From positions 1-64,000 of the forward strand of contig NZ_JAPSLI010000007.1 in the NCBI RefSeq assembly GCF_031180975.1: a stretch of DNA of 64,000 bases. The letters run 5' to 3'. The stretch comes from Microbacterium sp. (GTDB taxonomy: Bacteria > Actinomycetota > Actinomycetes > Actinomycetales > Microbacteriaceae). The notes beneath the pieces are model-generated. The model made no database searches, was not told where the DNA came from, and saw only the letters and a list, made by a program, of their open reading frames with translations. This document shows positions 7,054-40,363 of this stretch, piece after piece; positions within the stretch are counted from its first letter, which is position 1; each line of letters starts with the position of its first letter. Made by a program: the position numbers and the translations under genes.

Positions 7054-7075
7054 TTTCGATTCCCTTCTCAGCCGC

Positions 7076-10043: not shown

Positions 10044-10058
10044 TCCCGTGGGGTCGGC

Positions 10059-10190
10059 GGCTGGGTCCCTGAGCTCGTCGAAGGGCCCCAGCCTGAACCG
10101 AACGCCCCCATGCCTGGGTGCTTCGACAGGCTCAGCAACCCAGGCACTGGCGCCCCAGCCCGTCGCTTCGACAGGTTCAGCGACCCAGGA
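10059..10190. repeat. Cluster of three TTCGACAGGCTCAG-type repeats
   Basis: Three related imperfect palindromes occupy most of the space between radA and the next gene: 10059-10093 (GGTCCCTGAGCTCGTCGAAG), 10111-10146 (with TGCCTGGGT and ACCCAGGCA as arms) and 10161-10190. They belong to the same family as the copies inside cydDC. Being downstream of radA and downstream of the minus-strand gene at 10256, they may act as transcriptional end structures. Confidence 0.85.
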
Positions 10191-10255
10191 ACGAAGCGCC
10201 CCGGCACGCCGTGGCTTCGCCGGACTCAAGGCCCGAGGAAACGGACCGCCGACTG

Positions 10256-10666: not shown

Positions 10667-10683
10667 GGCTCCAGCTTATGATG

Positions 10684-10731
10684 GGGCCCTCTCGAGTCCT
10701 CCATTGGGGACTGGGGTACTCGAGAGGGCCC
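10684..10731. repeat. Perfect 14-bp-arm palindrome
   Basis: GGGCCCTCTCGAGT at 10684-10697 and ACTCGAGAGGGCCC at 10718-10731 are exact inverted copies around a 20-base spacer. It lies just upstream of the SseB-like gene and downstream of the membrane protein gene at 10882. No T-run follows the stem on either strand, so it may be a mobile-repeat end or a processing site and not an ordinary terminator. The rest of the 215-bp gap has no supported gene. Confidence 0.8.
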
Positions 10732-10881
10732 TCCAGTTCTCGGAGCGGCGAATGTCGAAGCGCTGGGGACGCTGGATCGACACCACTGGGGATGGCTGCG
10801 CCGCGTATTCGGAGAACCGACTTCTATGGTATCCCAAACCCGGACCGATGTCTGCACCCCCTTGACAACGAGCGAACTCTC

Positions 10882-11526: not shown

Positions 11527-11535
11527 GCTTCCAGG

Positions 11536-12036
11536 TTAGAGGTGCTTGAGCATGCGGGTGTTTCCGAGGGTGTTCGGCTTGACGTGCGCGAGGTCGAGGA
11601 ACTCCTCCACGCCCGCGTCGCCGCTGCGCAGCAGCTGCGAGTACACATCGGCGTCGACGATCTGCTCGCCGATCGGCTCGAATCCGCGTCGCGCGAAGAA
11701 CTCCGTCTCGAAGGTGAGGCAGAACAGCCGCGACAGACCGAGACGCCGGGCCTTCTCCTCGAGCTCTTCGACGATGGCGCGCCCGATGCCGTGGTGCAGC
11801 CAGTCCTCCCGCACGAGCAGGGTGCGGATCTCGCCGAGGTCCTCCCACATCACGTGCAGGGCGCCGCACCCGATCAGCTCTCCGGAGGCTTCGGCGACGA
11901 CGAACTCCTGTACCGCTCCGTAGAGCACGGCGAGATCCTTGCCGAGCAGGATGCGCCGGTCGACGAGCGGTTCCAGGAGGCGGTGGATGCCGGGGATGTC
12001 GGCGCTGCGCGCCGGCCGCACGTTGAACTCGCTCAC
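11536..12036 (-). CDS. Amino-acid N-acetyltransferase (ArgA-like GNAT)
   Basis: This 166-residue GNAT-fold protein has the acetyl-CoA loop in DWLHHGIGRAIVEELEE, followed by LGLSRLFCLTFETEFFARRGF. Its length and the IRTLLVRE block fit the short actinobacterial N-acetylglutamate synthases (Rv2747-like) that carry out the first step of arginine synthesis, so that role is likely but not proven. Start GTG 12036 gives VSEFNVRPARS, the normal GNAT beginning. The frame is open further upstream, but that extension is low-complexity. It is followed 9 bp later by the membrane protein gene. Confidence 0.8.
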   Translation of the reverse strand: MSEFNVRPARSADIPGIHRLLEPLVDRRILLGKDLAVLYGAVQEFVVAEASGELIGCGALHVMWEDLGEIRTLLVREDWLHHGIGRAIVEELEEKARRLGLSRLFCLTFETEFFARRGFEPIGEQIVDADVYSQLLRSGDAGVEEFLDLAHVKPNTLGNTRMLKHL

Positions 12037-12192
12037 CCCACCAGCGTATGCGGCGATGCCCCACCGGCTGGAAACCCGGACCATCGTGCGCGCCGCCGGC
12101 GTGTCGGCGCCCGGCACGCCGGCGTGCGGCGCACCCATCCGGGTTTTCGCACCGCGCACCCCCGGGCACGGCATCCCGCGCCCGGCATACGC

Positions 12193-12222
12193 AGAGAGCG
12201 GATGCCGTGGCATCCGCTCTCT
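12193..12222 (-). terminator. Hairpin behind clpC
   Basis: AGAGAGCGGATGCC and GGCATCCGCTCTCT are perfect 14-bp arms around a 2-base loop, 12 bp beyond the clpC stop. No T-run follows. The stem contains the genus-typical CGGATGCC word. Confidence 0.7.
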
Positions 12223-12233
12223 GTGAGGCGTGC

Positions 12234-14756
<2,523 letters not shown>

Positions 14757-23619: not shown

Positions 23620-25071
23620 TCAGTCCAGGTCCTCCGTGCTGAGGCGGGATCCGATGCGCTCGGCGAGGGCCGGCTTGACGAGCACGATCACCAGGCCGAT
23701 GAGGCACCAGGCGCCGGCGATCCACGGGAAGTAGGTGTACGGCGGCTGCTGCCCGGCGATCTGGATGAAGTACACGTAGCCGAGGAAGGCCAGCCCGAGG
23801 ACCGGGATGATGGCCTCCCACTTCGGGATGGTGGAGCCGCGCTTGAAGGTGTGCCGGATGACGCCGACCGAGGTCATGCCGTACGCGACGACCATGCACA
23901 GCGTGGCGATGGTGGCGAACCAGTAGTACACGTCAACCGAGGTGGCGCCGAACAGGCCGAACGCGACGGCGAGGACCACCGTGAAGATCACGACGAACAC
24001 GGTGCTGTGCACCGGGACGCCCGTCTTCGGGCTGGTGGCGGCGAAGGTCTTCGGGCCGAAACCGTCGCGCGCGAGCGCGAACAGCAGCCGGGACGAGGCC
24101 GCGGTGGAGCTCAGCAGCGACGCGAACGCGACGAGGAAGGCGAAGACCGCGATGAGCACGGCGAACCACTGGCCGATGTAGGTGGACGCGAGCGTGGTGA
24201 GCGTGGACGATGCGCCGGCGAAGGCGGCGATGCCGGCCTCGTCGGTGCCGAAGCCGATCGTCTGCGCGAACATCACGAGCACGTAGATGAGGCCGGCGAG
24301 GATCACTGCCAGCAGCAGGGCGATCGGGACGACCCGCTTGGGGTTGCGGGTCTCCTCGCCGAGCGACGTGCCGGACTCGAATCCCGCCCAGGACAGGAAG
24401 CCGAAGACGGCTGCGGTCATGACCGCGCTGATCGGCGCGTCGCCGGGGAGCAGCACCGACAGGTCGACGCCGGTGGAGACCGGTGCGTCGCCGGTCGCGA
24501 CCCGGACGATGATGACGACGGCGAGCACCACCATGGCAGCGATGCCGAGGAAGCCGATCCCGAGCAGGGTGCGAGCCGTGACGGTCGACTCGCGCACGTT
24601 GAGCAGGAGTGTGAAGACGGCGACGACGACAGGCACGACGACCCAGCTCCAGGCGGGGAGCGTGACGCCGAGCTCGGCCATCATCGCCTCGAAGAACACC
24701 GCGCAGGCGCCCGCGATGCACACGGCGAAGAACAGGTAGGTGCCGAGGAGCGCGAAACCACCGCAGAACCCGGCGCGCGGGCCGAGGGTGGAGCCGGCGA
24801 GCGCGTACACCGACCCCGCGTGGGTGATGTAGCGGGTGAGGCGGATGAAGGCGTAGGCGACGAGCATCGTCCCGATGAAGGAGACGATGAACGTGAACGG
24901 GACCGAGGAGCCGACCAGGCCCGCCACGCCGATGCCGTTGAGGGACATCGCCATGACCGGACCCATGAAGCCGACGGAGATCGCGACTACCTCCCAGAGC
25001 CGGAGGGTCTTGCGCGGTGCGGCGTCGGCACCGCGCGCGAGATCGTGCGGGGGGTGGGTCGTTGACGTCAT
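23620..25071 (-). CDS. APC-superfamily amino acid/amine permease
   Basis: This 483-residue protein has about twelve hydrophobic segments. It begins with the family-typical LWEVVAISVGFMGPVMAMSLNGIG, has GFLSWAGFESGTSLGEETRNPKR in the middle and ends with an acidic tail. APC permeases take up amino acids or amines. ATG 25071 follows GAAAGGTTTCCCCGACG. As first gene of the operon it probably brings in the substrate used by the ligase, the two hydrolases and the aminotransferase downstream. Confidence 0.92.
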   Translation of the reverse strand: MTSTTHPPHDLARGADAAPRKTLRLWEVVAISVGFMGPVMAMSLNGIGVAGLVGSSVPFTFIVSFIGTMLVAYAFIRLTRYITHAGSVYALAGSTLGPRAGFCGGFALLGTYLFFAVCIAGACAVFFEAMMAELGVTLPAWSWVVVPVVVAVFTLLLNVRESTVTARTLLGIGFLGIAAMVVLAVVIIVRVATGDAPVSTGVDLSVLLPGDAPISAVMTAAVFGFLSWAGFESGTSLGEETRNPKRVVPIALLLAVILAGLIYVLVMFAQTIGFGTDEAGIAAFAGASSTLTTLASTYIGQWFAVLIAVFAFLVAFASLLSSTAASSRLLFALARDGFGPKTFAATSPKTGVPVHSTVFVVIFTVVLAVAFGLFGATSVDVYYWFATIATLCMVVAYGMTSVGVIRHTFKRGSTIPKWEAIIPVLGLAFLGYVYFIQIAGQQPPYTYFPWIAGAWCLIGLVIVLVKPALAERIGSRLSTEDLD

Positions 25072-25405: not shown

Positions 25406-26985
25406 TCAGGCGACCATCGGATGGAATCGTTGCGGTGGTGGGTGGATTCCCGCCCACGCGTACCCGAGCACGGCGCGCCGTCGCAGGACGTAGTGTTCGC
25501 CGCTGGGATGGTGCAGGACGAAGTCGTCTTTGCCGTCGCGGGTGATGCGCCACCCGTTGTGATGCAGGCTCATGTGGTGGAATCGGCAGAGCAGGATCCC
25601 GCGATCGATGTCGGTGCGGCCGCCGTCGGCGCTCCACTCGTCGATATGGTGCGCTTCGCAGTACGAGGCGGGGCGATCGCAGCCGCGCCACATGCATCCG
25701 CCGTCTCGCAGTGCGAGCGCGATGCGCTGTTTGGGTGTGAACAGGCGATGCTCCCGCCCCACGTCCAGCGGATTCCCGAACGAGTCGACGGTGACCGACA
25801 CGGCACCGGTTTCGCACATGCGTTGCGCGACGAAACCGGCCGGAACCGCGACGAGGCCGTCCTCGGTGTGGGCGACCGGCGCCGGGGTGCCGTCGGCGCC
25901 GACCACCTGCACCAGGCGCACCCCCGCCTGCCGTGTGCCGAACACGCTCTCCGCGTCGGCCAGCACGCCCGCGCGGAGGATGTCGAGGAACAGGTCGTAG
26001 GCGAGCTGGTCGTTCGTGCGCGGGTCGTCGATCAGCGCGTCCGCGCGCGCCTTCTCCTCCGAGTCGACGAACCGGGGACCGCCCCGCCGCGGTCGCAGCG
26101 CCGCATCGAACACCGCCGCGAAGAACGCGTCGCCCTCGTCGTCGAACACGATCTTCGCGTGACGCGCACCGTCGGCGTCCCGCCAGGTGCGGAACATCCG
26201 CTTCTCGAGCCGCGCCAGGAACCGCTCCTGCGCCCCCTCCGGGTCGAGCAGGTCGCGGATCGTTCGCGCCGCCGACGCGAGCTCCTCGACCGTGCGCTCC
26301 GCCGCCTCGGCAATCAGCTGCACAGCCGCCTGCGACCACGCCTCACGCCTCGCCCGATCGATCGCGGCACGCTCCTCGAGACAGATGTCATCGGGCAGGC
26401 CGCGCGCAGCGGGCGGTCACCGAGCCCGCGACGGATCGCGTCGTACTGCGCCGTCGTCAACGTCCCCGCCGCGAGCGCGGCATTCAACGGCGCATGCCAG
26501 ACCACCGGCACCTCCGGCCGACCATTCGCGCCTGCTCCAGCATCCGCCCCTGCCCCGGCATCCGCCCCGCCTTCGGCTCCCGCCCCGGCATCCGCACCCG
26601 ACCCAGCATCCGACCCAGCGCCCGCGTCGCCCGCATCGCGCTGGCCGTCCAGCAGCGCCTGACCGACCCGCACATCGCGCGACGCCTCGCCCTTGGTCGA
26701 TCCGGTCACCTCCTGCACGAAACTCGCCGGCGAACGGTGCCCCTGCGACTGCGCGAGCCCGGAATGCCCCGTCTGCCGGGTCGAGCGATCGGCGACGACA
26801 CCCGCCGCCACCACCCGGATCTGGTCCGCGAGACGCGACACCTCGGACGCCTGACGCAGCACCGCGACGACATCCGCATCCGACATCCCCACCATCACAG
26901 CCGTCGCTTCCACCAGCGACGCGCCCTCGCCGAGCCGCTCCCCCAGCGTGGGAATCAGCGACGCGACGTCGGTGAAAACTGCCAT
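25406..26985 (-). pseudogene. DUF222/HNH endonuclease gene broken by a frameshift
   Basis: The first half (start ATG 26985) encodes the DUF222 helical region and a low-complexity Ala/Gly/Asp stretch made from repeats of GCATCCG. The second half encodes the HNH nuclease: CMWRGC, EAHHIDEWSADGG, LLCRFHH and HHNGW. The two halves are in different frames. Adding one C to a C-run near 26393 restores a continuous protein (ACPDDICLEERAAIDRAR...), which is the normal join for this actinobacterial family. Either the gene is inactivated or the base is a sequencing error. Members are numerous in actinobacterial genomes and mostly of unknown role. Confidence 0.8.
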
Positions 26986-28008: not shown

Positions 28009-29221
28009 CGGCGGCGGTCGGGCGGCCGCGCGCGGATCGACTGGCGCGGACGCGCGGGCACCGGGGTGGGCGCTCGCGCGGTACGTGTTCGCGGCGACGC
28101 TGGTGCGCTCGGCCGACGGCGGCGCAGTGGTCGCGATCGTGCTGCTGGCGCACGCGTCCGGCCTTCCGGGGTGGGTGTCGGGGTTGCTCGGCGCGTCGAT
28201 CACCGCCCCGCACGTGCTCGGCCCGTTCATCGCACGACGACTCGACACCGCGCAGGACGGTCGAAAGGTCATCGCCGTGTCGGCCGTCGCCCACGGCATC
28301 CTTCTCGGCATGGCCGGGATGCTGCTGCCGGCGACCCACGCGGTGATTCCGGCGCTGCTGCTTATCGTGTCGGGACTTTTCGGCCCGATGCTCACTGGTG
28401 GGGTGAGCAGCCGCCTGCCGTCGATCGCCGGGCCGTCCGTGAAGAGCCAGCGGCGCGCCCAGAGCTGGGACGTGGCCAGTTACGGGATCAGCGGCACGCT
28501 CGGCCCGGCGGCGGTGGCGTGGATCTCGGCGACGATCGGGCCGCTGGAGGCGACGCTTGCCCTCGCGGCCGCCGCCGTGCTCGGCGCCGGTGCCGTGCTC
28601 GCGCTGCCGCATCAGGGTCCGCCACCCGACCCGAAGGCGGTGCCGTCACCTGCACGCACCCTCATGACCATCTGGCGGTCGGGGCCGCTGCGCCGCACCC
28701 TCGGTCTCACCGTGGTGGTCGCCTTCTCTGTGGCCGCTCTCCCGATCTACGCCGTGGCGATCGCGCCGGGTCTCGGCAGCGCCGCACTCGCCGGGACGCT
28801 GGTCGCCGGCTACGGCGTCGGGAACCTGATCGGATCGGCCGCGCTCATGGTGCGCCCGCTGCACGGTGAAGCCGACCGCCTCACCACCGTCCTGGCGGCG
28901 GTGGTCGCCGCTGCCCTCGTCCTGGTCGTGCTGGTGCCGGGTGTGGCCCCGGCCCTCGCCGCATTCACAGTCGCCGGCGTCGCGAACGCCCTGTTCTTCG
29001 CCGCAACCCTCGCCGCCCGAAGCGAGTACGCACCCGTAGAGGCCCGCGGGCAGGTGTTCATCTGGGTGGGTGCGCTGAAGATCGCCGCCGGTTCGGCCGG
29101 AACTGCGGTGGCCGGGATGCTGATCGGCGGCGTTCCATGGATCGCGATCGTCGGGGTCGCCGCTCTGACCGCCGCCGCCGCACTCGTGTGCGCGGTCGAG
29201 CGGGGGCGGCGGGCGGGTTGA
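27980..29221 (+). CDS. MFS transporter
   Basis: This protein of up to 413 residues has about twelve hydrophobic segments, a conserved loop DTAQDGRKVIAVSAVAHG after helix 2 and a cytoplasmic Pro-rich loop after helix 6. The major facilitator superfamily is clear but the cargo is not. The start is uncertain: ATG 27980 overlaps the DapA-family gene by 29 bp, whereas TTG 28001 has GGAAGAG at a better spacing. It is convergent with the EcsC-like gene, with only 9 bp between stops. Confidence 0.85.
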   Translation: MWWKSSRLRDGGGRAAARGSTGADARAPGWALARYVFAATLVRSADGGAVVAIVLLAHASGLPGWVSGLLGASITAPHVLGPFIARRLDTAQDGRKVIAVSAVAHGILLGMAGMLLPATHAVIPALLLIVSGLFGPMLTGGVSSRLPSIAGPSVKSQRRAQSWDVASYGISGTLGPAAVAWISATIGPLEATLALAAAAVLGAGAVLALPHQGPPPDPKAVPSPARTLMTIWRSGPLRRTLGLTVVVAFSVAALPIYAVAIAPGLGSAALAGTLVAGYGVGNLIGSAALMVRPLHGEADRLTTVLAAVVAAALVLVVLVPGVAPALAAFTVAGVANALFFAATLAARSEYAPVEARGQVFIWVGALKIAAGSAGTAVAGMLIGGVPWIAIVGVAALTAAAALVCAVERGRRAG

Positions 29222-29230
29222 GGTCGGCGG

Positions 29231-30475
29231 TCACTCCCCTTCGGTCTGCTCCGGAACGTCTTGTTCGGCGGGCACGTCGGCCTCTCGCTTCCTCCTGCTC
29301 GAGAACAGCGATGCCGCCTTCTCCCTCGCGCCGTCGGCGAGGCCCGCGATCGCACCCCCGGCGTTCTTGACTGCGGTCACCGCTCGCGCCTCATCCGGGA
29401 TGCCGTCGCCGTCGAGGTCGACCGAGCGGAAGGCGTCCGCAGTCTTGCCCGCTGTGTCTGCCACCGCGCTCCCCGCACGTTTCGCGGCGGTGAGCGCCCG
29501 CGCCTCATCCGGGATGCCGTCACCGTCGAGGTCGATGGGGCGGAAGACGTCCGCGATGTCGCTGACCTTACCCCAGACGTTCTCGCCGAAATCCTTGACG
29601 TTGCTCGCTGCAGCCTCCAGCGCCGCTGCCGCCCGGGACGGCTCGACGTCCCCACGCGGCGCCTTCTCGTAATCGAGGAGCCATTCCGGGAAGCTGGTCG
29701 GCGTCTCGGGGAAGGCCAGTCTGGCCGCTTTGACGACGTCCCGCCCGAACGTGAAGCTGCCGATCCCGCCGATCACGGCGCCGACGCCGAACGGGATGGC
29801 CTTGCCCATGGTTCCCGCGCCGAGCTTTCCGCCGACCTTGATCGATTCGCGGCCGATCGCGATCGTCAGCGGCGCAAGCGCGGACTCGGGCAGCTGTTCA
29901 GTGAGGATCTCTCCCCACCCCTTCGGCAGCGCCTTGCCGACGGCACCAGACGCTGCGCCCTTGACCTGGGTCACGGCTCCGACCCCCGTAGCGGACATAA
30001 CCCACTTGGCGATCTCGCTCTGGGATTTCTGACCCAGCAGCATCCCGAGTACCAGCGGTCGCGCGCGCTCGGGGTCGTCGACCGGCACGCCGTGGAGCTC
30101 GGCGACGGCGAGCACGTAGAGCGCGCTGGTCTCGTAGAAGAACAGCAGATCTGCCACGCCGAGCCCGAGCGCGATCGGGATGCCGACGCCCGGGATGGCG
30201 GCGGATGCGCCCACTCCGCTGCTGGTGATCGTCACCGTCGCCACGTAGCGGCTGTCCAGTTCCCTGAGGAGGTCGGACGGGGTCGCGTTGGGCTTGTCGC
30301 GCCGCACGGCGCGCAGATACTCCTGGACTACCGGCCGCTGCACCGCGATGGCCTTGTAGATCTGGACCCGGAAGCCCTCGCCTTGGACGGCTTCCTTCGC
30401 CTTGTCCGCGACGAACTCCGGGATCCCCAACGTCGTCTGTTGTTCCTTCTCAGAATTGCTCGTCTCATCCCTCAT
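29231..30475 (-). CDS. EcsC-like protein with two EF-hand-type repeats
   Basis: This 414-residue protein has an N-terminal helical region (1-90) and a hydrophobic centre: GVGASAAIPGVGIPIALGLG at about 88-107, then LLFFYETSALYVLAVAELHG. That centre resembles EcsC-family membrane-associated proteins. A further glycine-rich segment lies near 240-260. The C-terminal 130 residues hold two copies of a module with DLDGDGIPDEA (about 30 residues each), the loop of calcium-binding EF-hand or dockerin/thrombospondin repeats, then a charged tail. No signal peptide is visible. It is the third gene of the minus-strand run beginning with the restriction enzyme at 36503, 30 bp after the previous gene. Confidence 0.65.
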   Translation of the reverse strand: MRDETSNSEKEQQTTLGIPEFVADKAKEAVQGEGFRVQIYKAIAVQRPVVQEYLRAVRRDKPNATPSDLLRELDSRYVATVTITSSGVGASAAIPGVGIPIALGLGVADLLFFYETSALYVLAVAELHGVPVDDPERARPLVLGMLLGQKSQSEIAKWVMSATGVGAVTQVKGAASGAVGKALPKGWGEILTEQLPESALAPLTIAIGRESIKVGGKLGAGTMGKAIPFGVGAVIGGIGSFTFGRDVVKAARLAFPETPTSFPEWLLDYEKAPRGDVEPSRAAAALEAAASNVKDFGENVWGKVSDIADVFRPIDLDGDGIPDEARALTAAKRAGSAVADTAGKTADAFRSVDLDGDGIPDEARAVTAVKNAGGAIAGLADGAREKAASLFSSRRKREADVPAEQDVPEQTEGE

Positions 30476-30505
30476 TCCCTCCCCCTGCGCAGATCCGGAT
30501 CCAAC

Positions 30506-31582
30506 TCAGAACCATTTCTTCAGCAGCGTCGCGACGACGCGACGCATCCGCCTTCCGCTCTTCGCGTACGCGGTCTCCAGATCGACCACCGCGCCCTGTC
30601 GCGGGTAGAGACGCCCTTCCATCGAGACGATGGCAATAGGCTCTTCGCCTCGCATCAGCGCCCAGAAATGGCTGTGCGGTTCTCCGTAGATGCCGAGCCG
30701 GGGAGTGGTCGTCAGATCGGCGACGGCCGAAGGGAACCTCATGATCCGTTCGGCACGGAAGGGCTCCTCGCCGGAGGTGTCGACGAACTCGCTCCTGACG
30801 TCCCAGCCTCGGCGGTCGTGCGCGAACAGCGTCGTCGCCGTGGCGAGCAACCTGTAGGAAAGGCTTCGCGAGGTGGCTTTCGGTGTCCGGGCCGGAGGCA
30901 CCAGACCTGCCATGCTCTCGAGTTGGAGCACCCGATGGAAGGGGTCGGCGTCCAGGAGCACATGCTCCCAGCCGGCGGCGAATCCCGGGACACCCTCGAC
31001 CTGAATACTTCCGGCGCGGTTGAGGAGGATCCGCCCGGCGGAACTCGTCGCAGCGGGACTCAGTTGGGCCGGGGCGGCGACACAGAGGATGTCGTACTGC
31101 CCCCCGCCGGGGTGCATCTCGTAGATGATGAGCTCCGGATGCCGCCTCACCACCTCCGCGGCCAGCCACCATGAGCGGGCGAGCACAGCGGGAGGAACAT
31201 CCCACCCCGATACGCCGTTCTCGCCGGACGCGCCACGCAGGCCCCCCTGCTGCGCAGCCGGCGTTCCGATCGTCACTTCGTGCTGCGCTCGCACCTGAGC
31301 ATGAATCTCGACGAGGTCCGGTGGCCCGAAGCCCAGCCGATCATCGTGGAGCACCAGCCAGTTCGGCGAGGTGGACGCCTTGTACTCGGCCCACGTCCGC
31401 AACGGCATCGGAGGCCGGTCGTACATGGCCTTCATACCGCGTTGCTCGAAGGCTTGGCTCTCCGGCGGATAGTAGTGTGCTTCGTCGTCGCCGTCCCCGA
31501 TGGCCCAGACACCGACCGGCTCGAGCCTACCCTTCACAGTCGACCGGACCCGATGAACGAGGATCAGCACCGCGCCGCTCAT
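30506..31582 (-). CDS. Putative TY-Chap2-like peptide-binding protein
   Basis: This 358-residue protein is not a member of a well-known enzyme family. The block LIIYEMHPGGGQYDILCV followed by ILLNRAGSIQV recalls the TY-Chap2 group (YbjN/type-III-chaperone-like folds), which I know from memory as predicted peptide chaperones in bacterial conflict systems; this is a tentative match. A second region near residues 230-330 has RLGIYGEPHSHFWALM and looks like a separate alpha/beta domain. ATG 31582 gives MSGAVLILVHRV. It starts 16 bp after the restriction enzyme and lies 30 bp before the EcsC-like gene, so all three are probably one transcript. Confidence 0.6.
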   Translation of the reverse strand: MSGAVLILVHRVRSTVKGRLEPVGVWAIGDGDDEAHYYPPESQAFEQRGMKAMYDRPPMPLRTWAEYKASTSPNWLVLHDDRLGFGPPDLVEIHAQVRAQHEVTIGTPAAQQGGLRGASGENGVSGWDVPPAVLARSWWLAAEVVRRHPELIIYEMHPGGGQYDILCVAAPAQLSPAATSSAGRILLNRAGSIQVEGVPGFAAGWEHVLLDADPFHRVLQLESMAGLVPPARTPKATSRSLSYRLLATATTLFAHDRRGWDVRSEFVDTSGEEPFRAERIMRFPSAVADLTTTPRLGIYGEPHSHFWALMRGEEPIAIVSMEGRLYPRQGAVVDLETAYAKSGRRMRRVVATLLKKWF

Positions 31583-31598
31583 GCGCGGTACCGGATGC

Positions 31599-34500
31599 TC
31601 ACGGGGTACCCGTCTCGTCGATGACCTCGAACGCGGGAAGCTCCGCGATGAGACGCTGGGTCTCGAGGCTGACCGTGACGAGCGAGCGGATGAGATCGAC
31701 GACGTAGCGTGGGTTGTCCTGCTCGTGCAGCCATGCGTTCGGATCGTTGACGATGCCGGATACCTTGTCGACGGTGATCTTGTAGCGGTCGATCACCCAT
31801 TCCAGTGGGCTACGTCCCCCGACCTTGTACTCACTCTCCGCCTCGGGGATGCCGGTGATCGTGAGGTGGGAGTTGTAACGGATCGCGGTGTGGTCCTTGC
31901 GTGAGACCCAGGACAGCTTTTCGATCCGGTAGCGCTCGAACGGGTCCTCGGGCGCGGCCAGCGTTAGCTCCTCGCCCAGCGGGTACTGCGCGGCCGACTC
32001 GTAGTCGACATGCAGATCGGCGAGGGCACGGCCGATGCGCGCGTACTCGGGGAAACCCTTCACCTGCGGGATACGTGGGAGCATCTTCTGCAGGTCGGCA
32101 GCGTAGGTCTCCCGGTACGTCGGATGGTGCAGGAGAGCGTAGATGCCGTAGAAGATGTCATCCTTCGTAATGCCGTCGCCGTGGATCTTGCGGTATGCAT
32201 CGAGGGTCGCATCGGTGATGTTGTCTACGCGGCGGAAACCGTCGACGACGACGTCGCTGTCGGATGCCACGAGCGCGTCGAGGTTGAGCGCGCCGTCAGG
32301 AGCGGACAACGGTTCCCAGGTGAAACGAGGGAATACCTGGGAATCACCATTGACATGGAGGTCCGGAAGCTGGTTAACCGCCAGCGGGCACCCCCCTCCC
32401 TTGGCGCTTACAGTGATCGCGATGTTGCTGTGCGCTGCACTGGGCGACATCTTGGGAGCAATGCCCCGTGCATCAATCAGTGCGGGATCGAACCAGATCG
32501 TCTGCGACACAAATGGACGATAGGCAACCGATCGCGAGGCTCCCGCGGATCGGTCGATCTGCAAGCCTCGGCGCCGACGGGCATCGAACGTTCGCGACCA
32601 GCTAATCCGGCGAGGGTCGGGCACTGCATCGGGGTTCGCAATGAGTGCATGCATTGCGTCCGCCATGATTTCAACATTGCGAGCGACCGATCGGCTGTCA
32701 AAACCGTAGAGCCACGCGTCGCGGGCGGTGTTGACTCCCATAGCAAAGCTACGAAAAATCGCGCTCGTATCCGCCCTGCCTTTCGACTTCTTATCGCCGA
32801 TTGCACGCCAAGACCCGAAGCGCTCGTCGCGCTGATTGATCCAGTCGCCGGCATCATTCGGAGCGAGGATTTTGAAGCGCGTTCCTGTGATCGATCCTTC
32901 AGCGGCAAGCCGATCAATCTTCTCTTCACGGCTGAGATAGTCGCCGATATCGTGGTAATAAACGCGGGCGCGGCTCACATGAACCGCCCGTTTCACCAGG
33001 ATGGTAATGGCGACCCCAGTTTGAGATCCTTCGCCGAAGATCTTGCCTCCCTCGGCCCGCCAGTTCTTCAGCCGCTGGTTGCCGCGCAAGTTGTACACGA
33101 TGATATCGGAGAACTCGTGATCCCACGATTTGCGAACGCCGTCGGCAGTGCCCCCATCAATGAACCCACTGTTGGATACGAATGCGATCACGCCCCCTTC
33201 CGGGCGCAACCTGTCACTCGCCCAACGGATGGCGCGGTAATAAGAGTCGTACATATCGGCTTTGCGCGTTGCCGTGGATCGCTTCGCATAGGTCTCAGCG
33301 ATCCGCGCATCCGTCAATGCATACTTTGCGTTCTGAGCTCCATCGTTCGCGCTTGACTGTCCTGCCCGGTATGGCGGGTTCATCACGATCACGTCGATGA
33401 GTGCGTTGCGCTGCTTCGCAAGTCGCGCAGTGTTCTCCGGAAACACTCCTCCAGCCAACTGACCGTCACGTTCATCCATGGCGAAGGTGTCAGTCAAGCT
33501 AATCCCTGCGAACCCGCCCCCCGTAGGTTCAATACCATTCTCTGTACAGAGCTCGCGATACACGCTCTCGATGTTCACGGCGGCGATGTAATAGCTCAGT
33601 AGCACGATCTCGTTCGCGAACAGCTCCTGCGTGTACTTCCTCGTGAGATCTTCGGGCTTGACCAGCCCGGTCTGCATCAGGCGGGTCAGAAAAGTTCCGG
33701 TGCCGACGAACGGCTCAAGGATGTTCACCCCCTCGTCGCTCAAGCGCTTACCGAAGTGCTGGTGAAGAGCGACATCCGCCGAGCGCAAGATGTAGTCGAC
33801 GACCTCGACGGGCGTGAAGACGATGCCCATGCGATCCGCGAGCAACGGGAACGCCTTCGTGAAGAACTTGTCGTAGAGCGTGACGAGCATCTGCTGCTTC
33901 GCCCGTACGGAATCGAGGCCGCGGATCCGGTCCGTGACACGCCCGTAGAACGCGTCGAGCGGCTCGCGCTCCCGCGCGAAGGCCGCGTTCTCGTGGAAGG
34001 TCCCGAGTACCTGCTCCATGGCGAGCGACACGGGGTTGTCCTGCGTGAACGACCCCTCCGGGAACATCGCCTCGAATACCGGCTTGGTGATGAGGTGCTG
34101 CGCGAGCAACTCGATCGCCTCGGCCTCCGAGACATCTGGGTTCACGGTTGCGCGCAACGCCTTGACGAACTCATCGAACGGCGCGCGGTCGGCACCGTCG
34201 GCATTGACGTGTGCCGTGATCAGCGCGATGAATCGCTGGGCGATCAGGGCGATGTCGCCGGCCCAGTCGTCCCAGTACATGCGGTCGCCGACCTTGGCGA
34301 CGAGCTTCGCGTAGACCGAGTCCTTCCAGACCTCGGCGCTCGATGTCAGCCCGGGGAGGGTCGGCGCGAGGTGAGACGGCCCGGCACCCCTTCCGCGGTC
34401 CGGCTGCTCCGCGGGCTCGCTCGGCGCGTCGAACGGGGAGCCCTGGCGCGGCTTCGACGACGTGAGATTGAGGCGCTCGATGAGTACCTGCTCCGGCAGC

Positions 34501-36503
34501 TTCCCGGTGTAGGCGGCCTGGTTGATCGCGGTGTCGAGCCGCTCGTCGTGCGCGCGCAGCGCCTGAAGCACCTGCCAGACGACCTTGTAGCGCTCGTTGT
34601 CGTTCAGCGCCTCTTCCGGCGGCACTCCGGCCGGAATCGCGATCGGCAGCACGATGTAGCCGAGCATCTTCTCCGGCGCGCGCCGCATCACGCGACCAAC
34701 CGCCTGCACGACGTCCACCTGGCTCTTGCGCGGGCTGAGGAACAGGACCGCGTCGAGGCTCGGCACGTCGACGCCCTCGCTCAGGCAGCGCGCATTGGTG
34801 AGCACCCGGGCGACAGGACGCCCGTATTGGTCCTGCTCGGGGGCGGCCTTGAGCCAATCCAGCAGCTCACTGCGCTGGGTAGCGTTCATGGTGCCGTCGA
34901 CGTGCTTGGCCTGAACAGTCAGATCATCCGTCGAGTCGTCGTTCTCGATGTTCGACAGGTGTCCTTCGACGAGCGCTTGGAAGTCGCTGGCCACGCCGAT
35001 GGACGTCTTGATGTCCTTCGCGAATGCGACGGCCCGCCGCATCGGCGCAGTATCCGCACCGAAGCCCTCGGCGATCGCACCGGCGTTTCTCTTGGCCAGC
35101 GCGTTCCAGCATCCGATGAGCTTCGCCACGTCGGTCACCGCGAGCTCACGGCCCTCGTGCGCCAACTCCTGCTGCAGAGTCTCGACGATCTCGTCTTCAC
35201 TGATTCCGAGTACGACGACCTTGTAATCGGTGAGCAGACCCTTCCGCACGGCCTCGTCGAAGCCGATGCGGTACAGCACCGGCCCGAACACTTCCTCGTC
35301 ATCCATCGAGACGAGTTCGGCCGACTTTTGGGAGGCCGCGTTCTTCACTTCCGGTGCGAAGATGCGCGGGGTGGCGGTCATGTACACACGCGCGGACGCA
35401 GGGATGATCGCGTTGTCGTGCACCTTGACGAAGTGCGATTCGTCCTCATTGACGAGCGTCACCCCGGTCGTGCGGTGGGCCTCGTCACAGATGACGAGGT
35501 CGAAGGTGTCCCTGCGCAGACGTTGCGCCTCCGCGACGGCTTCTATCGACTGGTAGGTCGAGAAGACGACGGTGAGCCCCTCGTGCTCCTCTTCGACATC
35601 GCCAAGGAGGTTGGCTAGGGTTCGGCCGTCAGTAGTTGCGGGCGCTCCGAGGTCCTCCATCCGGACGCTGGTGAGGTCGTCGTTCTTGCGACGGCCGATG
35701 TTCGAGTCGGACCCTACGGCGAACGCTCGGAAACCCATTTCGGGATCGCGCTCCCGCGACCACTCGTCGAGCGACTGCTGCAGCAGTGCCAGCGAGGGCA
35801 CCATGAAGAGGACCGTGGCGGCACCACCGGCGACCTCGTTGGTCCATCGCTCTGCGAGCTTGAGCGCGGTGAAGGTCTTGCCGGTGCCGCAGGCCATGAT
35901 GAGCTTGCCTCGGTCCTGACCGCGGCCGGGTCTGAGTCCGTCCAGCACCGCTTGCACAGCTTCGTGCTGGTGGGCCCGCAGCGTCTTGACTGGGTGTACT
36001 TCGGGGGCGACCTCGGGCTTTAGTAGTTCGTACGTCGACCAATCGACGGAACTGTGACGAAGCTCGGCGAGCGACACTCTTTGCACTGGCTTCGTGCGGT
36101 TCTTCAGCGCCTCCTCGGCGTTGGCTGACCACGGCGCACTCGTGGTGTCGATGACAAGACCCTCGGTGAACGGGTCCTTGCCCATTGCTTCGAAGAACGA
36201 GTCAAGATCGCCCTTCTGCATGCGGTGGTTCTCGGCGAAGAACTTGACCTGCACGGCGAGCAATCCGCCACCTTGGATCTCCGCCACGAGGTCGATACCG
36301 GTGTCGGGGCGGCCGTTGCGCCCCGGCCAGTCCTTCCACAGCCACACCTCACCCAGGCGCTGTGATCGCAACGAGTCGAGTTTTAGGTAGTGACGTGCGA
36401 GCTGCTCGAGGTAGTTGCCGGCCATTCGCTTGCTGTCGGCGAGGTCGCGGAACTCCGCAAGCAATCCATCGAGCGTGGTCTCGTATAGGCGCTCGTCAGC
36501 CAT
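31599..36503 (-). CDS. Type ISP single-chain restriction-modification enzyme
   Basis: This 1634-residue enzyme combines all activities of an LlaGI/LlaBIII-like system. The N-terminal Mrr-like nuclease has Asp71 in GIDLVA and Gln85-x-Lys87. The SF2 translocase has Walker A ACGTGKT (about 204-210), CDEAH (339-343), MTATPR and QAVGRVMRR. After a coupler come an N6-adenine methyltransferase with LEPFVGTGTFL (near 930) and NPPY (near 1040), then a target-recognition domain. Start ATG 36503 follows a strong GGGGGAGG. GC content falls visibly around 32,300-33,500, in the target-recognition part. It heads a three-gene run and is divergent from an XRE gene. Confidence 0.93.
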   Translation of the reverse strand: MADERLYETTLDGLLAEFRDLADSKRMAGNYLEQLARHYLKLDSLRSQRLGEVWLWKDWPGRNGRPDTGIDLVAEIQGGGLLAVQVKFFAENHRMQKGDLDSFFEAMGKDPFTEGLVIDTTSAPWSANAEEALKNRTKPVQRVSLAELRHSSVDWSTYELLKPEVAPEVHPVKTLRAHQHEAVQAVLDGLRPGRGQDRGKLIMACGTGKTFTALKLAERWTNEVAGGAATVLFMVPSLALLQQSLDEWSRERDPEMGFRAFAVGSDSNIGRRKNDDLTSVRMEDLGAPATTDGRTLANLLGDVEEEHEGLTVVFSTYQSIEAVAEAQRLRRDTFDLVICDEAHRTTGVTLVNEDESHFVKVHDNAIIPASARVYMTATPRIFAPEVKNAASQKSAELVSMDDEEVFGPVLYRIGFDEAVRKGLLTDYKVVVLGISEDEIVETLQQELAHEGRELAVTDVAKLIGCWNALAKRNAGAIAEGFGADTAPMRRAVAFAKDIKTSIGVASDFQALVEGHLSNIENDDSTDDLTVQAKHVDGTMNATQRSELLDWLKAAPEQDQYGRPVARVLTNARCLSEGVDVPSLDAVLFLSPRKSQVDVVQAVGRVMRRAPEKMLGYIVLPIAIPAGVPPEEALNDNERYKVVWQVLQALRAHDERLDTAINQAAYTGKLPEQVLIERLNLTSSKPRQGSPFDAPSEPAEQPDRGRGAGPSHLAPTLPGLTSSAEVWKDSVYAKLVAKVGDRMYWDDWAGDIALIAQRFIALITAHVNADGADRAPFDEFVKALRATVNPDVSEAEAIELLAQHLITKPVFEAMFPEGSFTQDNPVSLAMEQVLGTFHENAAFAREREPLDAFYGRVTDRIRGLDSVRAKQQMLVTLYDKFFTKAFPLLADRMGIVFTPVEVVDYILRSADVALHQHFGKRLSDEGVNILEPFVGTGTFLTRLMQTGLVKPEDLTRKYTQELFANEIVLLSYYIAAVNIESVYRELCTENGIEPTGGGFAGISLTDTFAMDERDGQLAGGVFPENTARLAKQRNALIDVIVMNPPYRAGQSSANDGAQNAKYALTDARIAETYAKRSTATRKADMYDSYYRAIRWASDRLRPEGGVIAFVSNSGFIDGGTADGVRKSWDHEFSDIIVYNLRGNQRLKNWRAEGGKIFGEGSQTGVAITILVKRAVHVSRARVYYHDIGDYLSREEKIDRLAAEGSITGTRFKILAPNDAGDWINQRDERFGSWRAIGDKKSKGRADTSAIFRSFAMGVNTARDAWLYGFDSRSVARNVEIMADAMHALIANPDAVPDPRRISWSRTFDARRRRGLQIDRSAGASRSVAYRPFVSQTIWFDPALIDARGIAPKMSPSAAHSNIAITVSAKGGGCPLAVNQLPDLHVNGDSQVFPRFTWEPLSAPDGALNLDALVASDSDVVVDGFRRVDNITDATLDAYRKIHGDGITKDDIFYGIYALLHHPTYRETYAADLQKMLPRIPQVKGFPEYARIGRALADLHVDYESAAQYPLGEELTLAAPEDPFERYRIEKLSWVSRKDHTAIRYNSHLTITGIPEAESEYKVGGRSPLEWVIDRYKITVDKVSGIVNDPNAWLHEQDNPRYVVDLIRSLVTVSLETQRLIAELPAFEVIDETGTP

Positions 36504-36537
36504 CGACGTCCTCCCCCGCGGCGTGCCTTCCCCGGGA

Positions 36538-36566
36538 TTGGTACTAGTACCCGGGTTTGTTAACCC
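36538..36566 (+). promoter_or_regulatory. Promoter with a perfect palindrome, XRE/restriction divergent gap
   Basis: GGTACTAGTACC at 36540-36551 is an exact 12-bp palindrome and contains ACTAGT, like C-protein boxes of restriction systems. On the plus strand TTGGTA (36538-36543) and TAACCC (36561-36566) are separated by 17 bases, so the palindrome overlaps the -35 of the XRE gene. A second imperfect dyad GGGTTTGTTAACCC overlaps the -10. Confidence 0.5.
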
Positions 36567-36601
36567 TGGCACAAGTTACGGACATTGCAGACGCTTGACG
36601 G

Positions 36602-36877
36602 GTGCCACGCGTCCCCTCCCCAGCCGCCGCTCATATCGGCGCGCGAATTCGCTGGGCGCGGGAGTCGGCGACCATGACTCAAGACGAGCTCGCAGTGGCC
36701 GCGGGCATCGATTCCTCGAACGTCCGCGCTTACGAATCAGGCCGAGCGATGCCCAGCATCCACACCCTGCTGCGCATCGCCCAGGCGCTTCGGACGCCCG
36801 TGTCGCAGTTCCTCGACGAGCTCGCACTCGACATGTTCCCGACGAACCAGGCTGACGCACGGCGTCGGGCCGGCTGA
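36602..36877 (+). CDS. XRE-family regulator, probable restriction-system controller
   Basis: This 91-residue protein is a single helix-turn-helix domain: MTQDELAVAAGIDSSNVRAYESG (residues 25-47) is the Cro/C1-type recognition unit, followed by MPSIHTLLRIAQAL. Small XRE proteins divergent from restriction enzymes often delay or damp nuclease expression (C proteins). GTG 36602 is used; the upstream sequence has only a weak ribosome site and the message may be nearly leaderless, as in known C genes. The palindrome at 36540 is its likely operator. An alternative shorter start is the in-frame ATG at Met25, but that would cut the first helix. Confidence 0.85.
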   Translation: MPRVPSPAAAHIGARIRWARESATMTQDELAVAAGIDSSNVRAYESGRAMPSIHTLLRIAQALRTPVSQFLDELALDMFPTNQADARRRAG

Positions 36878-36888
36878 TCGCTCATGTC

Positions 36889-36917
36889 GGCCCTTCGACA
36901 GGCTCAGGGACCCAGCC
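36889..36917. repeat. PELVEG-type repeat downstream of the XRE gene
   Basis: GGCCCTTCGACAGGCTCAGG then GACCCAGCC matches the family seen in cydDC and behind radA. It lies between the XRE stop and the symporter, 12 bp after the stop codon. Confidence 0.85.
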
Positions 36918-37025
36918 ACGACCCCGCCCCGTCACGATTCGTCATCTCCGGGGCGGGAATTCGCGGCCACTCCTAACGTTGACTCCCATGGCGTGCACCG
37001 TGCGCGCGAACGACTTGGAGTACAC

Positions 37026-38471
37026 GTGAGCAGCAACACTCGCGCCCAGAAGGCGCCCGACACCCGAGGACCGGTCCGCAAGCTGGTGACCTCCTTCGGG
37101 TTCCAGATCATCGCAGCCCTCGTCCTCGGCATCGCCGCGGGCCTCGTCGCCCGCAACCTCGGAGCGACCGCCGAGAACCCGACCGGCCTGTCCGCCACCC
37201 TCGACACGATCGGCAGCTCGTACGTCACGTTGCTGCGCGCGGCGGTCGTCCCGCTGATCTTCACCGCCATCGTGGCGAGCATCTCCAACCTGCGCCGCGT
37301 GCAGAACGCCGCACGCCTCGCCGGACAGACGCTCGTCTGGTTCGCCATCACCGCGTTCATCGCCGTGACCATCGGCATCGTGCTCGGCCTCGTCATCCGG
37401 CCCGGCGCCCGCGCCGGCGACGGCTTGGAGCCCGGCGACCCCTACACGGTCGGCACCTGGTGGAACTTCCTGCTCGGCCTCATCCCGCAGAACTTCCTCG
37501 GCCTCACGGTGAACACCTCGTTCGACCCCGAGGCGCAGGCCGCCACCTCGAGCGTCGGATTCAACATCCTGCAGGTCATCGTCGTCGCGACCGTCATCGG
37601 CATCGCTGCGCTGAAGGCCGGCAAGAAGGCCGAGCCCTTCCTCGTCTTCACCGAGTCGCTGCTGAAGGTCATCCAGCGCGTGCTGTGGTGGATCATCCGC
37701 ATCGCCCCGATCGGCACGTTCGGCCTGATCGGCGCCGCCGTCGTCGAGTACGGCTGGGACAAGCTCACCTCGCTCGCCTGGTTCGCGGGCGCCATCTACA
37801 TCGGCCTCGCCCTGGTGATCTTCGTGGTCTACCCGATCCTGGTGAAGACCCACGGCCTGTCGATCCGGCAGTACTTCTCCGGCGTCTGGCCGGCCGTGCA
37901 GCTGGCCTTCGTCAGCCGCTCCTCGATCGGCACCCTGCCCCTGACCGAGCGCGTCACCGAGCGCAACCTCGGTGTGCCCCGCGCCTACGCCTCGTTCGCC
38001 GTGCCGTTCGGCGCGACCACCAAGATGGACGGCTGCGCCGCCATCTACCCGGCGATCGCCGCGATCTTCGTCGCGCAGTTCTTCGGCATCGAGCTGAACA
38101 TCGTCCAGTACCTGCTGATCGTGATCGTCTCGGTGGTGGGCTCGGCCGCCACCGCGGGCACCACCGGCGCGACCGTGATGCTCACGCTCACGCTGTCGAC
38201 GCTCGGCCTGCCGCTCGAGGGCGTCGGCCTGCTCCTCGCCATCGACCCGATCCTCGACATGGGCCGCACCGCGGTCAACGTCGCGGGCCAGGCCCTGGTG
38301 CCGACCATCGTCGCCAAGCGCGAGGGCATCCTCGACGAGGACCTCTACAACGCACCGCGCAACGGCCTGCCGTTCGCCGACGACGCCGACGAGACGGTCA
38401 CCGACTCGAACGCCGACGAGACGGATGCCGTCGCACCGGCATCCGAGTCGGAGCCCGCAGCAACCCGCTGA
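37026..38471 (+). CDS. Dicarboxylate/amino acid:cation symporter (DAACS/SLC1)
   Basis: This 481-residue protein has about eight membrane segments plus the two re-entrant hairpins of glutamate-transporter-type carriers. Diagnostic residues are SSIGTLPL (hairpin 1), ATTKMDGCA, AGTTGAT (hairpin 2) and DPILDMGRTAVNVAG, which binds substrate and cation. It takes up C4-dicarboxylates or acidic amino acids with Na+ or H+. GTG 37026 follows TTGGAGTACAC. The C-terminal 40 residues are acidic (DDADETVTDSNADETDA). A strong hairpin terminates it. Confidence 0.93.
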   Translation: MSSNTRAQKAPDTRGPVRKLVTSFGFQIIAALVLGIAAGLVARNLGATAENPTGLSATLDTIGSSYVTLLRAAVVPLIFTAIVASISNLRRVQNAARLAGQTLVWFAITAFIAVTIGIVLGLVIRPGARAGDGLEPGDPYTVGTWWNFLLGLIPQNFLGLTVNTSFDPEAQAATSSVGFNILQVIVVATVIGIAALKAGKKAEPFLVFTESLLKVIQRVLWWIIRIAPIGTFGLIGAAVVEYGWDKLTSLAWFAGAIYIGLALVIFVVYPILVKTHGLSIRQYFSGVWPAVQLAFVSRSSIGTLPLTERVTERNLGVPRAYASFAVPFGATTKMDGCAAIYPAIAAIFVAQFFGIELNIVQYLLIVIVSVVGSAATAGTTGATVMLTLTLSTLGLPLEGVGLLLAIDPILDMGRTAVNVAGQALVPTIVAKREGILDEDLYNAPRNGLPFADDADETVTDSNADETDAVAPASESEPAATR

Positions 38472-38638: not shown

Positions 38639-40363
38639 TCACCGCTCGGCGCGCAGCGCGCCCCTCGTGTCGAGCACCAGCTCCTCGGCATCCATCGCGG
38701 TGATGAGCTCGTGCATGACCTCTTCGCTGAGGTTTCCGGCATCCCGCTCGTGCAGCAGCACCTGCCGCCGCACTGCCAGCCACCCCTTCGACAGCGCCAC
38801 GAACTCCTCATACGTCGGCCGCCCGTCCGACTCGCGCGCGCCGCGCTCGGCGTTCGACTCGATCTTCACCAGCCGTTCGGCGAACGCGTCGAACGCCGCC
38901 AGCCGCTCCTCGCCGTGCCGCTGCACCCATTCCCTGCGCATGTCGCGCAGATACGCCTTGCCGACCTCCCGACTGCGCGCCCGCATCGCCTCGATCTGAC
39001 GCGCGTCCTCGATCGCCTCCGCGTCGTCGACCACCCCGAGCACGCGGATCAGCCACGGCAGCGTGAGCCCCTGCAGCAGCAGCGTCCCGACGGTCACCAC
39101 GAACGCGGTCACGACGATGGCGTGCCGCGCGCGCTCGTCGAGTCCCGCCAGATCGGATGCCGCCAGCGCCGTGGCCAGCGTGACCACGCCCCGCATGCCG
39201 GCCCACGAGATGACCGCGTTGTCGCGCCACGACAGCGGCGGCTCGACCAGCCTGCTGCGCAGCTGCTCCTCGGTCAGCGGGTGCGTGCCGAACCTCGCCC
39301 GCGGATGCCGGGCCGCCTGCTCCCGCCAGACATCGACCTTCCCGCTCGCCACCGCGCGCTCCCAGCGGTGCAGCCGGATGCGCTGCCACGCCTGGCCCCA
39401 CGCGTTGGCCGGGTACACGAACAGCGGACGCACCAGCAGCGTGACCAGCAGCACCACGAACGCGAGCCCGATCAGCCCGCCGGCCTCGCCGGCCCCGAGG
39501 TCGGCGAGCACCCGCGGCAGCTGCAGCCCGATGTACGCGAACACGAACGCCTCGAGCAGGAAGTCCGCCGACAGCCACAGCGGCTTCTCCTGCTGGCGGG
39601 TGGTGTAGCTGGTGCGAGGTGCGTTGAACCCGACGAACAGTCCCATGGCGACCACGGCGAGCACCCCCGACCCGAGCAGGTGCTCGGCGATCGCGTACGC
39701 GCCGAACGGCGCGAGCAGCCCCACCGTGCCGTTCACCACCGGATCGTCGATGCGCATGCGCAGCCGGTGCAGTCCGACGCCGAACACCAGCCCGACGGCC
39801 GTACCGATCACCACGGCAAGCACGAACTGCCACAGTCCGTCGCCGACGCTCAGTGTCGCGCCGGCGACGATCGCCGCGAACACCCGGTACAGCGTCAGCG
39901 ACGTGGCGTCGTTGATCAGGCTCTCCCCCGAAAGCACCGTCATCACCCGTCGCGGCAACCCGAGCTTGCGCCCGATGGCCGCTGCGGACACGGCATCCGG
40001 CGGGGCGACGATGGCACCCAGCAGCAGCGCCCCGGGCAGGGTGAGCGACGGCATCACCATCCAGGCGACCAGCCCGACCACCGCGGTCGTGACCACGACG
40101 AGCCCGACTCCGAGCCGGCGGATCTGCGGCATGCTGCGCTTGAAGCTCACGAACGACACGTCCAGCGCCGCCGAGTACAGCAACGGCGGCAGCACGATGT
40201 TCAGCAGCACGTGGCCGTCGATCTCGAGGTTCGGCACGAACGGCAGGAAGGATGCCGCCAGCGCGGCGACCGTGACCAGCAGTGGCGCCGGCCACCCCTT
40301 GCTGCGTGCGATCGCGGCGACCGCGACCGCTCCGACGAGGATGAAGAAGATGCCTGCGTCCAT
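38639..40363 (-). CDS. NhaP/CPA1-type Na+/H+ antiporter
   Basis: This 574-residue membrane protein has about twelve N-terminal membrane segments, with APPDAVSAAAIGRKLGLPRR and GESLINDATSLTLYR, the CPA1 cation-site motif ending in an Asn-Asp pair. A cytoplasmic tail of about 170 residues (KAYLRDMRREWVQRHGEE...) is charged and helical, usual for regulatory C-termini of this group. It exchanges internal Na+ or K+ for H+. Start ATG 40363 gives MDAGIFFILVGAVAV. It is a single gene with no obvious partner. Confidence 0.93.
   Translation of the reverse strand: MDAGIFFILVGAVAVAAIARSKGWPAPLLVTVAALAASFLPFVPNLEIDGHVLLNIVLPPLLYSAALDVSFVSFKRSMPQIRRLGVGLVVVTTAVVGLVAWMVMPSLTLPGALLLGAIVAPPDAVSAAAIGRKLGLPRRVMTVLSGESLINDATSLTLYRVFAAIVAGATLSVGDGLWQFVLAVVIGTAVGLVFGVGLHRLRMRIDDPVVNGTVGLLAPFGAYAIAEHLLGSGVLAVVAMGLFVGFNAPRTSYTTRQQEKPLWLSADFLLEAFVFAYIGLQLPRVLADLGAGEAGGLIGLAFVVLLVTLLVRPLFVYPANAWGQAWQRIRLHRWERAVASGKVDVWREQAARHPRARFGTHPLTEEQLRSRLVEPPLSWRDNAVISWAGMRGVVTLATALAASDLAGLDERARHAIVVTAFVVTVGTLLLQGLTLPWLIRVLGVVDDAEAIEDARQIEAMRARSREVGKAYLRDMRREWVQRHGEERLAAFDAFAERLVKIESNAERGARESDGRPTYEEFVALSKGWLAVRRQVLLHERDAGNLSEEVMHELITAMDAEELVLDTRGALRAER

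Follow-up and report, generated by a model that had tools for sequence, protein, structure and literature searches.

Introduction

The type ISP restriction-modification (R-M) enzymes LlaGI and LlaBIII methylate self DNA and cleave unmodified phage DNA. An enzyme with the same domain order, and with full-length sequence similarity to both, is encoded in the stretch of Microbacterium sp. DNA studied here (64,000 nucleotides of contig NZ_JAPSLI010000007.1, assembly GCF_031180975.1; called the window below). Unlike LlaGI and LlaBIII, it has two payload genes behind it, one for a TY-Chap2 protein and one for a protein called 'EcsC-like', and a divergent switch with a gene for an XRE-type regulator. 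An earlier note on this DNA had suggested that the two downstream proteins make up a second layer, possibly abortive or acting at the membrane, that is linked to the enzyme. Our comparison with related genomes makes it probable that the run is a composite, sitting at a chromosomal hot spot for defence systems that has a lasting switch, and that TY-Chap2 is a portable accessory of R-M systems.

Several described regulators resemble this switch. Controller (C) proteins of R-M systems, as presented in the accessible parts of two papers (PMC6237814; PMC4824078), are, like the XRE protein of the window, small XRE-type proteins beside R-M genes with a conserved operator. In the accessible part of a third paper, the C gene is 'encoded immediately upstream' of the restriction gene (PMC12255303). 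By contrast, the XRE gene of the window is not an upstream co-directional gene: it is divergent from the ISP gene, and the same switch stands before several payload types. BrxR/CapW recurs beside many defence systems (PMC9122601), and RptR is found mostly beside type I R-M systems, with a conserved site (PMC12255303); as far as the accessible parts of these papers go, both are, like the XRE protein of the window, recurrent defence-linked regulators with a conserved site. Unlike BrxR/CapW, the XRE protein has no WYL domain (91 aa, helix-turn-helix only), and, unlike the site of RptR as given in the accessible part of its description, the 34-bp element of the window has no TAGCTA repeat. What is different here is the XRE protein itself, the long operator with fixed spacing, and the exchange of payloads at one site.

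The TY-Chap2 family has been described in systems centred on ADP-ribosylglycohydrolase (ARG), where it is predicted to bind peptides and where restriction-endonuclease-fold genes are named as variable partners (PMC9503650). The run of the window shares this family with them. Unlike those systems, it has no ADP-ribosylglycohydrolase, phosphatase or Nudix/WYL regulator among its genes, and its TY-Chap2 copy has an extra N-terminal region and stands behind a whole R-M enzyme. Pfam searches found no ADP-ribosylglycohydrolase among the four proteins of the run, selected neighbours being family-searched outside it. This gene set and this switch were not found described among the papers listed in the literature searches, outside which lay preprints and most subscription papers; the searches also found nothing on a defence hot spot in Microbacterium or on EcsC with phage defence.

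Results

The enzyme gene lies at 31599..36503 (1634 aa), the TY-Chap2 gene at 30506..31582 (358 aa) and the 'EcsC-like' gene at 29231..30475 (414 aa), all three on the minus strand and separated by 16 and 30 bp, respectively. The XRE-type gene (36602..36877, plus strand) is divergent from the ISP gene, and the perfect 12-bp palindrome GGTACTAGTACC (36540..36551, no strand), read directly and kept with variants across loci, sits between them. The list of open reading frames (ORFs) agrees exactly with the gene positions, strands and spacing of the earlier note; the divergent arrangement around a palindrome was likewise borne out, with a switch more general than had been proposed. The G+C content of the run is 64.5%, lower than that of the 10-kb flanks (71.5% and 71.3%), as expected of acquired DNA. 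A consensus scan of 28900-37100 gave no promoter-like or terminator-like site on the minus strand; on the plus strand, the one promoter-like and three terminator-like sites did not exceed the level of shuffled sequence.

The enzyme was correctly recognized as a single-chain type ISP protein. Its reading frame is free of stops, the start being taken as the ATG at the 36503 side, behind the ribosome site GGGGGAGG; the longest frame begins at 36572. Pfam domains occur in the order expected for the type (Mrr_cat_2, ResIII, Helicase_C, ISP_coupler, Type_ISP_C), so that nuclease, SF2 helicase, coupler, methyltransferase and target-recognition parts are found in one chain. The motifs GTGKT (206), DEAH (340), GTGTF (934) and NPPY (1042) are present; the N6_Mtase and Eco57I matches are themselves under the Pfam cut-off, with NPPY and GTGTF nonetheless there. 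PADLOC model PDLC03597 matches the protein at 2002 bits, and by sequence it matches the solved structures of LlaBIII (4xqk) and LlaGI (5ffj) over most of its length. It is 81% identical to the ISP enzyme of genome G381 (genomes are labelled G, and loci L, with a number). As a side observation, an AAA_13-type gene follows the ISP gene in L097 (11647-18616), where it matches PADLOC PDC-S06 at 4.8e-178, and a similar gene starts behind ISP, as judged by eye, in L066 and L139-L141.

For comparison, 247 genus genomes (that of the window among them) and 199 of the family were searched, one per species and drawn from larger groups. These first-look searches may miss distant copies, and in related loci some of the gene names come from reading the sequences. 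A conserved 34-bp putative operator (36541..36574, plus strand), overlapped by the palindrome, was recognized between the XRE and payload genes by aligning ten loci, namely the window, seven related ISP-linked loci and two TY-Chap2-bearing operons of the Eco57I type. It occurs once in the window and in none of 100 shuffles. With up to three mismatches, the pattern was found in 18 of the 247 genus genomes, once in each, and the reversed-pattern control gave 0; with G609 and G620 (four mismatches), this makes 20 operator loci. The window and G760 share all 34 bases, while their XRE proteins are 53% identical. Spacing is strict as well: in 19 of 20 loci the XRE start codon follows the element at a distance of 27 nt, and in G757 at 28 nt; a -10-like RACGCT stands 6 nt ahead of that start in 16, the other four having one or two changes. 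In the window, a putative leaderless XRE promoter (36567..36595, plus strand), recognized from its sequence and conserved spacing, would combine a -35-like TGGCAC (36567-36572), a 17-nt spacer and a -10-like GACGCT (36590-36595), 6 nt from the GTG start; the conserved distance between -10 and start suggests the geometry of a leaderless transcript. The XRE protein has helix-turn-helix matches only (HTH_3, 9e-14; PADLOC Control_protein, 2.5e-7). Viral contigs gave no match to the operator, one exact pattern having been searched.

What stands behind this operator varies. The 20 payloads comprise eight ISP enzymes and one ISP remnant, five systems of T5orf172/Eco57I type (one a variant), and one each of a type III Mod, a DrmD-like helicase, BrxC with PglX, and HmaBC, while one locus has none and one was not assigned. 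Genes of the right-hand flank of the window recur on the XRE side in 13 of the 20 loci, which indicates that most of them are one chromosomal site. XRE and operator thus form what is, from these comparisons, apparently a portable switch before different payloads. The XRE proteins point the same way: mean identity is 58.0% within payload types (38 pairs) and 59.2% between them (40 pairs), and a single clade for the ISP-linked XREs was rejected (approximately unbiased test, p 1.8e-5), so that XRE ancestry does not follow the payload. For the XRE tree, the broken-frame G618 was removed and labels were given only to 13 intact loci, the remnant-labelled G757, G764 and G672 being unlabelled. The XRE protein of the window is 65% identical to those of G692 and G644, which have Eco57I-type payloads, and only 54% to that of G381, although the ISP payload of G381 is 81% identical to the enzyme of the window.

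Some further traces were seen at operator loci. In L166 (G672), at about 9279-9749, a 45-residue methylase piece beside the operator shares 93% identity with the Eco57I-type payload's small methylase, as if such a payload had been replaced there. GmrSD-type genes that are related to each other accompany the switch: in L121 (G609; 6229-13457) they precede the ISP gene, and in L135 (G760; 8614-11949) they follow TY-Chap2.

Among the genus genomes, ISP relatives were found in 15 (E 1e-150), close copies of the EcsC-like gene in 6 (E<=1e-47; 5 besides the window's) and TY-Chap2 in 8 (1e-8), and all three occurred in one genome, that of the window. G794 has both ISP and TY-Chap2, on different contigs. 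By tblastn, neither TY-Chap2 nor the EcsC-like gene was found in any of the 14 other genus ISP loci fetched. Among the family genomes, 14 had ISP, 9 had TY-Chap2 and 149 had some EcsC-like homologue, usually a single one; none of the 13 other family ISP loci had TY-Chap2 by tblastn, the downstream side of the G066 locus ending at a contig edge. Each payload gene of the window was found elsewhere without the other two, and TY-Chap2 was never seen together with a close EcsC-like copy in the other loci fetched. A conserved three-gene system was rejected on this co-occurrence. Both downstream genes occur without an ISP enzyme, so that a dedicated machine of three proteins is not supported. For the earlier note, the link would have been one of chance if these genes appeared in relatives without any restriction enzyme or were rarely adjacent to one.

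The middle gene does encode a TY-Chap2 protein, as had been proposed: PF22553 matches residues 135-356 with E 2.9e-57 and 194.5 bits, the cut-off of the family being 27. The extra N-terminal region, of about 105 residues, could be aligned in 7 of 12 rows. An AlphaFold2 model (mean pLDDT 80.5, pTM 0.66), compared in view of the two copies of the TY-chaperone fold that characterise the family, gave no Foldseek match at 0.001, and its best match by VIA, to a Mediator subunit, was weak (Z 6.7, rmsd 4.1 over 94 residues). A single-sequence scan of genome contigs with TY-Chap2 found nothing, and an alignment-based scan then gave 10 loci; a class-wide search with the TY-Chap2 of the window added one genome of 394 at 1e-8, with 5 candidates scored per genome. 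None was found in viral contigs. In all, the window's subfamily was represented by 18 distinct loci. This number excludes L104 and the ARG-type loci (L079-L082 and L084-L086), and the hits in G053 and G174 were left unplaced; rows L010 and L013 were dropped from alignment A1 because of wrong orientation.

In 4 of these 18 loci, an R-M gene on the same strand immediately precedes TY-Chap2, the two being at most 16 bp apart or overlapping. The gene just ahead is ISP in the window, the T5orf172/ResIII protein of an Eco57I-type system in G620 and G760, and the type I gene HsdR in Microcella pacifica (L101). Elsewhere, several loci have relaxase, recombinase or transposase-like neighbours, in conjugative or insertion-sequence surroundings; TY-Chap2 lies upstream of a ZorB gene in Flavimobilis, and 2.8 kb from an ISP gene, on the opposite strand, in L097. 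In the TY-Chap2 tree, the window's copy groups with those of G620 and G760 in one clade (97/97 after removal of four long-branch rows). These three stand behind the same XRE switch with unrelated enzymes, which indicates that TY-Chap2 followed or moved with the switch and not with the enzyme. A placement by chance alone is weakened by this switch-linked clade and by the direct adjacency to three R-M types. The claim that the partners are tied to restriction was thus partly upheld: the tie is not specific to ISP, and it appears to be more than mere chance, for TY-Chap2 as well as in view of the EcsC-like copies near an ISP remnant, type I R-M genes and DISARM genes (see below). The placement behind three unrelated R-M types suggests that TY-Chap2 may be a portable, general accessory of restriction proteins.

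Two other settings of the family were noted. On plasmid pNOCA01 of Nocardioides sp. JS614 (L094, 7983-9673), TY-Chap2 and a REase-ARP/PDDEXK_13 gene share 4 bases, and upstream of the pair are tcmP and, a few genes off, drmC. In L082 (8507-10767) and L085 (6439-10197), TY-Chap2 genes of another subfamily lie beside genes that by eye are ADP-ribosylglycohydrolase-like and Nudix-like, as described previously (PMC9503650).

The third protein fits its name less well. No Pfam or NCBIfam match to the EcsC model was found up to E 0.1 for the protein of the window, nor any match to the Pfam EcsC model up to 0.01 in the 12 aligned members, this protein included, so that the label is without support from these models. 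PADLOC gave only PDC-S29 (5.3e-7, 27.4 bits, residues 187-258) and PDC-S30 (0.0045); PDC-S29 is a phage-defence candidate to which the similarity is weak, and no function was found for it. The description as a membrane-type protein depends on a single hydrophobic stretch of borderline strength, whose Kyte-Doolittle mean over 19 residues is at best 1.85 (residue 94). As for the calcium-loop repeats, two DxDxDG loops are indeed present in the sequence, but EF-hand matches remain below the Pfam cut-offs. A single-sequence fold (pLDDT 40.1) was not used.

A tree of 13 rows separates core homologues, one per genome (6), from loop-tailed copies (7), both sides at 100/100. The copies of the window and G757 are sisters (95/95) on the loop-tailed side, which G686 joins by pairwise scores only, giving eight loop-tailed loci. 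The copies of G757 and G748 are at the place equivalent to that of the window, adjoining an amino-acid permease gene, with a DUF222 gene as well in G748, where the switch contig ends within the payload. Close copies thus lie at the far edge of the site in three genomes, in one of them as deduced across contigs. In G757, an ISP piece (residues 14-61, 67% identity, E 2.7e-15) lies between the operator and an insertion sequence, and the truncated EcsC-like gene follows in the same order as in the window; this indicates that ISP and the EcsC-like gene were together before the species of the window and of G757 parted. In G691, the loop-tailed copy and a type I HsdMSR operon diverge from each other across about 160 bp; in G803, the copy is flanked on one side by a GmrSD_N gene and on the other by genes that match DrmD and methylases (DISARM). 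By eye, no defence neighbour was evident in the other three loci considered (G049, G064 and G686). The EcsC-like gene was not found in viral contigs. In two genera of the family, an ISP gene with a divergent XRE gene lies about 1-2.5 kb from a core homologue (L067 of G091 and L070 of G118).

Concerning the flanks, the right-hand anchors are a sodium:dicarboxylate symporter gene (36993..38471, plus strand, PF00375), which recurs at other operator loci, again on the XRE side, and a Na+/H+ exchanger gene (38639..40363, minus strand, PF00999). On the left, a DUF222-type gene (25406..26985, minus strand) appears as two overlapping ORFs, with PF02720 in the 25406-26323 part only; it neighbours the payload in related loci and is a single ORF in L118, L120, L124 and L126. 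The amino-acid permease gene (23620..25071, minus strand, PF13520) is the one that adjoins the EcsC-like copies of G748 and G757. In the window, DHDPS- and MFS-type genes lie between the EcsC-like and DUF222 genes.

Discussion

The occupancy of one chromosomal site by different payloads behind a constant switch is, in our view, the probable explanation of this run. From a mechanistic point of view, the XRE protein would bind the 34-bp operator and hold down both its own leaderless promoter and that of the payload; in a new host, the payload would then be made first and be throttled once XRE accumulates. Autoregulation and delayed restriction are characteristic of C proteins. The ISP enzyme would methylate self DNA and cut unmodified phage DNA, as LlaGI and LlaBIII do. 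TY-Chap2, whose start lies 16 bp behind ISP with no clear ribosome site and which is therefore probably translationally coupled, would most likely bind peptides and, as an accessory of the large restriction protein, help it to fold, stabilise it or hold it in check; of these modes of action, we prefer folding or protection of the enzyme, followed by restraint of the nuclease. Its occurrence with unrelated R-M types implies that it should not depend on any single fold of the enzyme. The EcsC-like gene, transcribed from the payload promoter, would most likely be a passenger of the site with a link to defence, but it may have a role as an effector. A bolder form of this explanation, which we hold only tentatively and would put at somewhat less than even chances, is that the site acts as a defence socket, where a resident XRE protein and a strictly spaced two-way operator control whichever methylation-guided system has been swapped in (ISP, T5orf172/Eco57I R-M, type III R-M, DrmD-type and perhaps BREX), TY-Chap2 being a general chaperone that outlives its enzyme.

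A dedicated system of three proteins, with TY-Chap2 and its EcsC-like neighbour adding an abortive or membrane-acting layer to ISP, could account for the tight same-strand spacing, for the order kept in G757 between the ISP remnant and the cut-short EcsC-like gene, and for the close EcsC-like copies beside the type I R-M genes of G691 and DISARM of G803. The 2 of 13 family ISP loci near a core EcsC-like homologue also speak, at the level of gene neighbourhood, for some tie between the two, although the ISP gene could there have been inserted into a busy glycan locus (gene names by eye). Such a system nevertheless appears improbable given that the full set was met in 1 of 247 genus genomes, that 14 of 14 other genus ISP loci have neither partner, and that the two partners were not found together in the other loci fetched. 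Hitchhiking, with TY-Chap2 and the EcsC-like gene as unrelated cargo of a hot spot and the spacing as mere operon packing, we regard as unlikely, though less so than a dedicated machine. It would suit the 14 of 18 TY-Chap2 loci that are not directly behind an R-M gene, several of them in conjugative or insertion-sequence surroundings, the DHDPS- and MFS-type genes that intervene before DUF222 in the window, and the three of eight loop-tailed loci with no evident defence neighbour; it fits poorly with a TY-Chap2 gene that overlaps or abuts three unrelated R-M types and whose switch-linked copies remain a clade across the change of enzyme.

Several points weigh against the composite-occupant explanation that we prefer. 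Besides the 14 TY-Chap2 loci just mentioned, the 4 direct adjacencies amount to three independent enzyme pairings, G620 and G760 sharing one R-M system, and with all 18 rows the support of the TY-Chap2 clade falls to 93/96, below the program's star. The XRE tree rests on 91 columns and has no strongly supported branch, and the nearest relatives of the XRE protein of the window, G757 (77%, ISP remnant) and G587 (67%, ISP), would fit inheritance with ISP too. Right-hand anchors are not seen in 7 of 20 operator loci, in one of them owing to a contig end; the HmaBC genes of G672 are oriented towards the operator, which therefore does not drive them; another ORF separates operator and BrxC in G764; and in G748 the EcsC-like gene and the switch with its payload are on different contigs, linked through their flanks. 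Binding of XRE to the operator, co-transcription of the run, and contact between TY-Chap2 and the enzyme are proposals drawn from sequence.

Conclusion

On the comparisons made here, the three genes appear to have been assembled into a set and do not look like a single conserved machine, and this case shows that a composite operon can pass for a new system when a single genome is read alone. If our reading is true, TY-Chap2 would be a lead on the folding or restraint of large restriction proteins of any type. Some bacteria would reduce the risk of new restriction systems by plugging them into a resident, tuned switch, and the safe exchange of toxic methylation-guided systems, an old question, would become directly testable.

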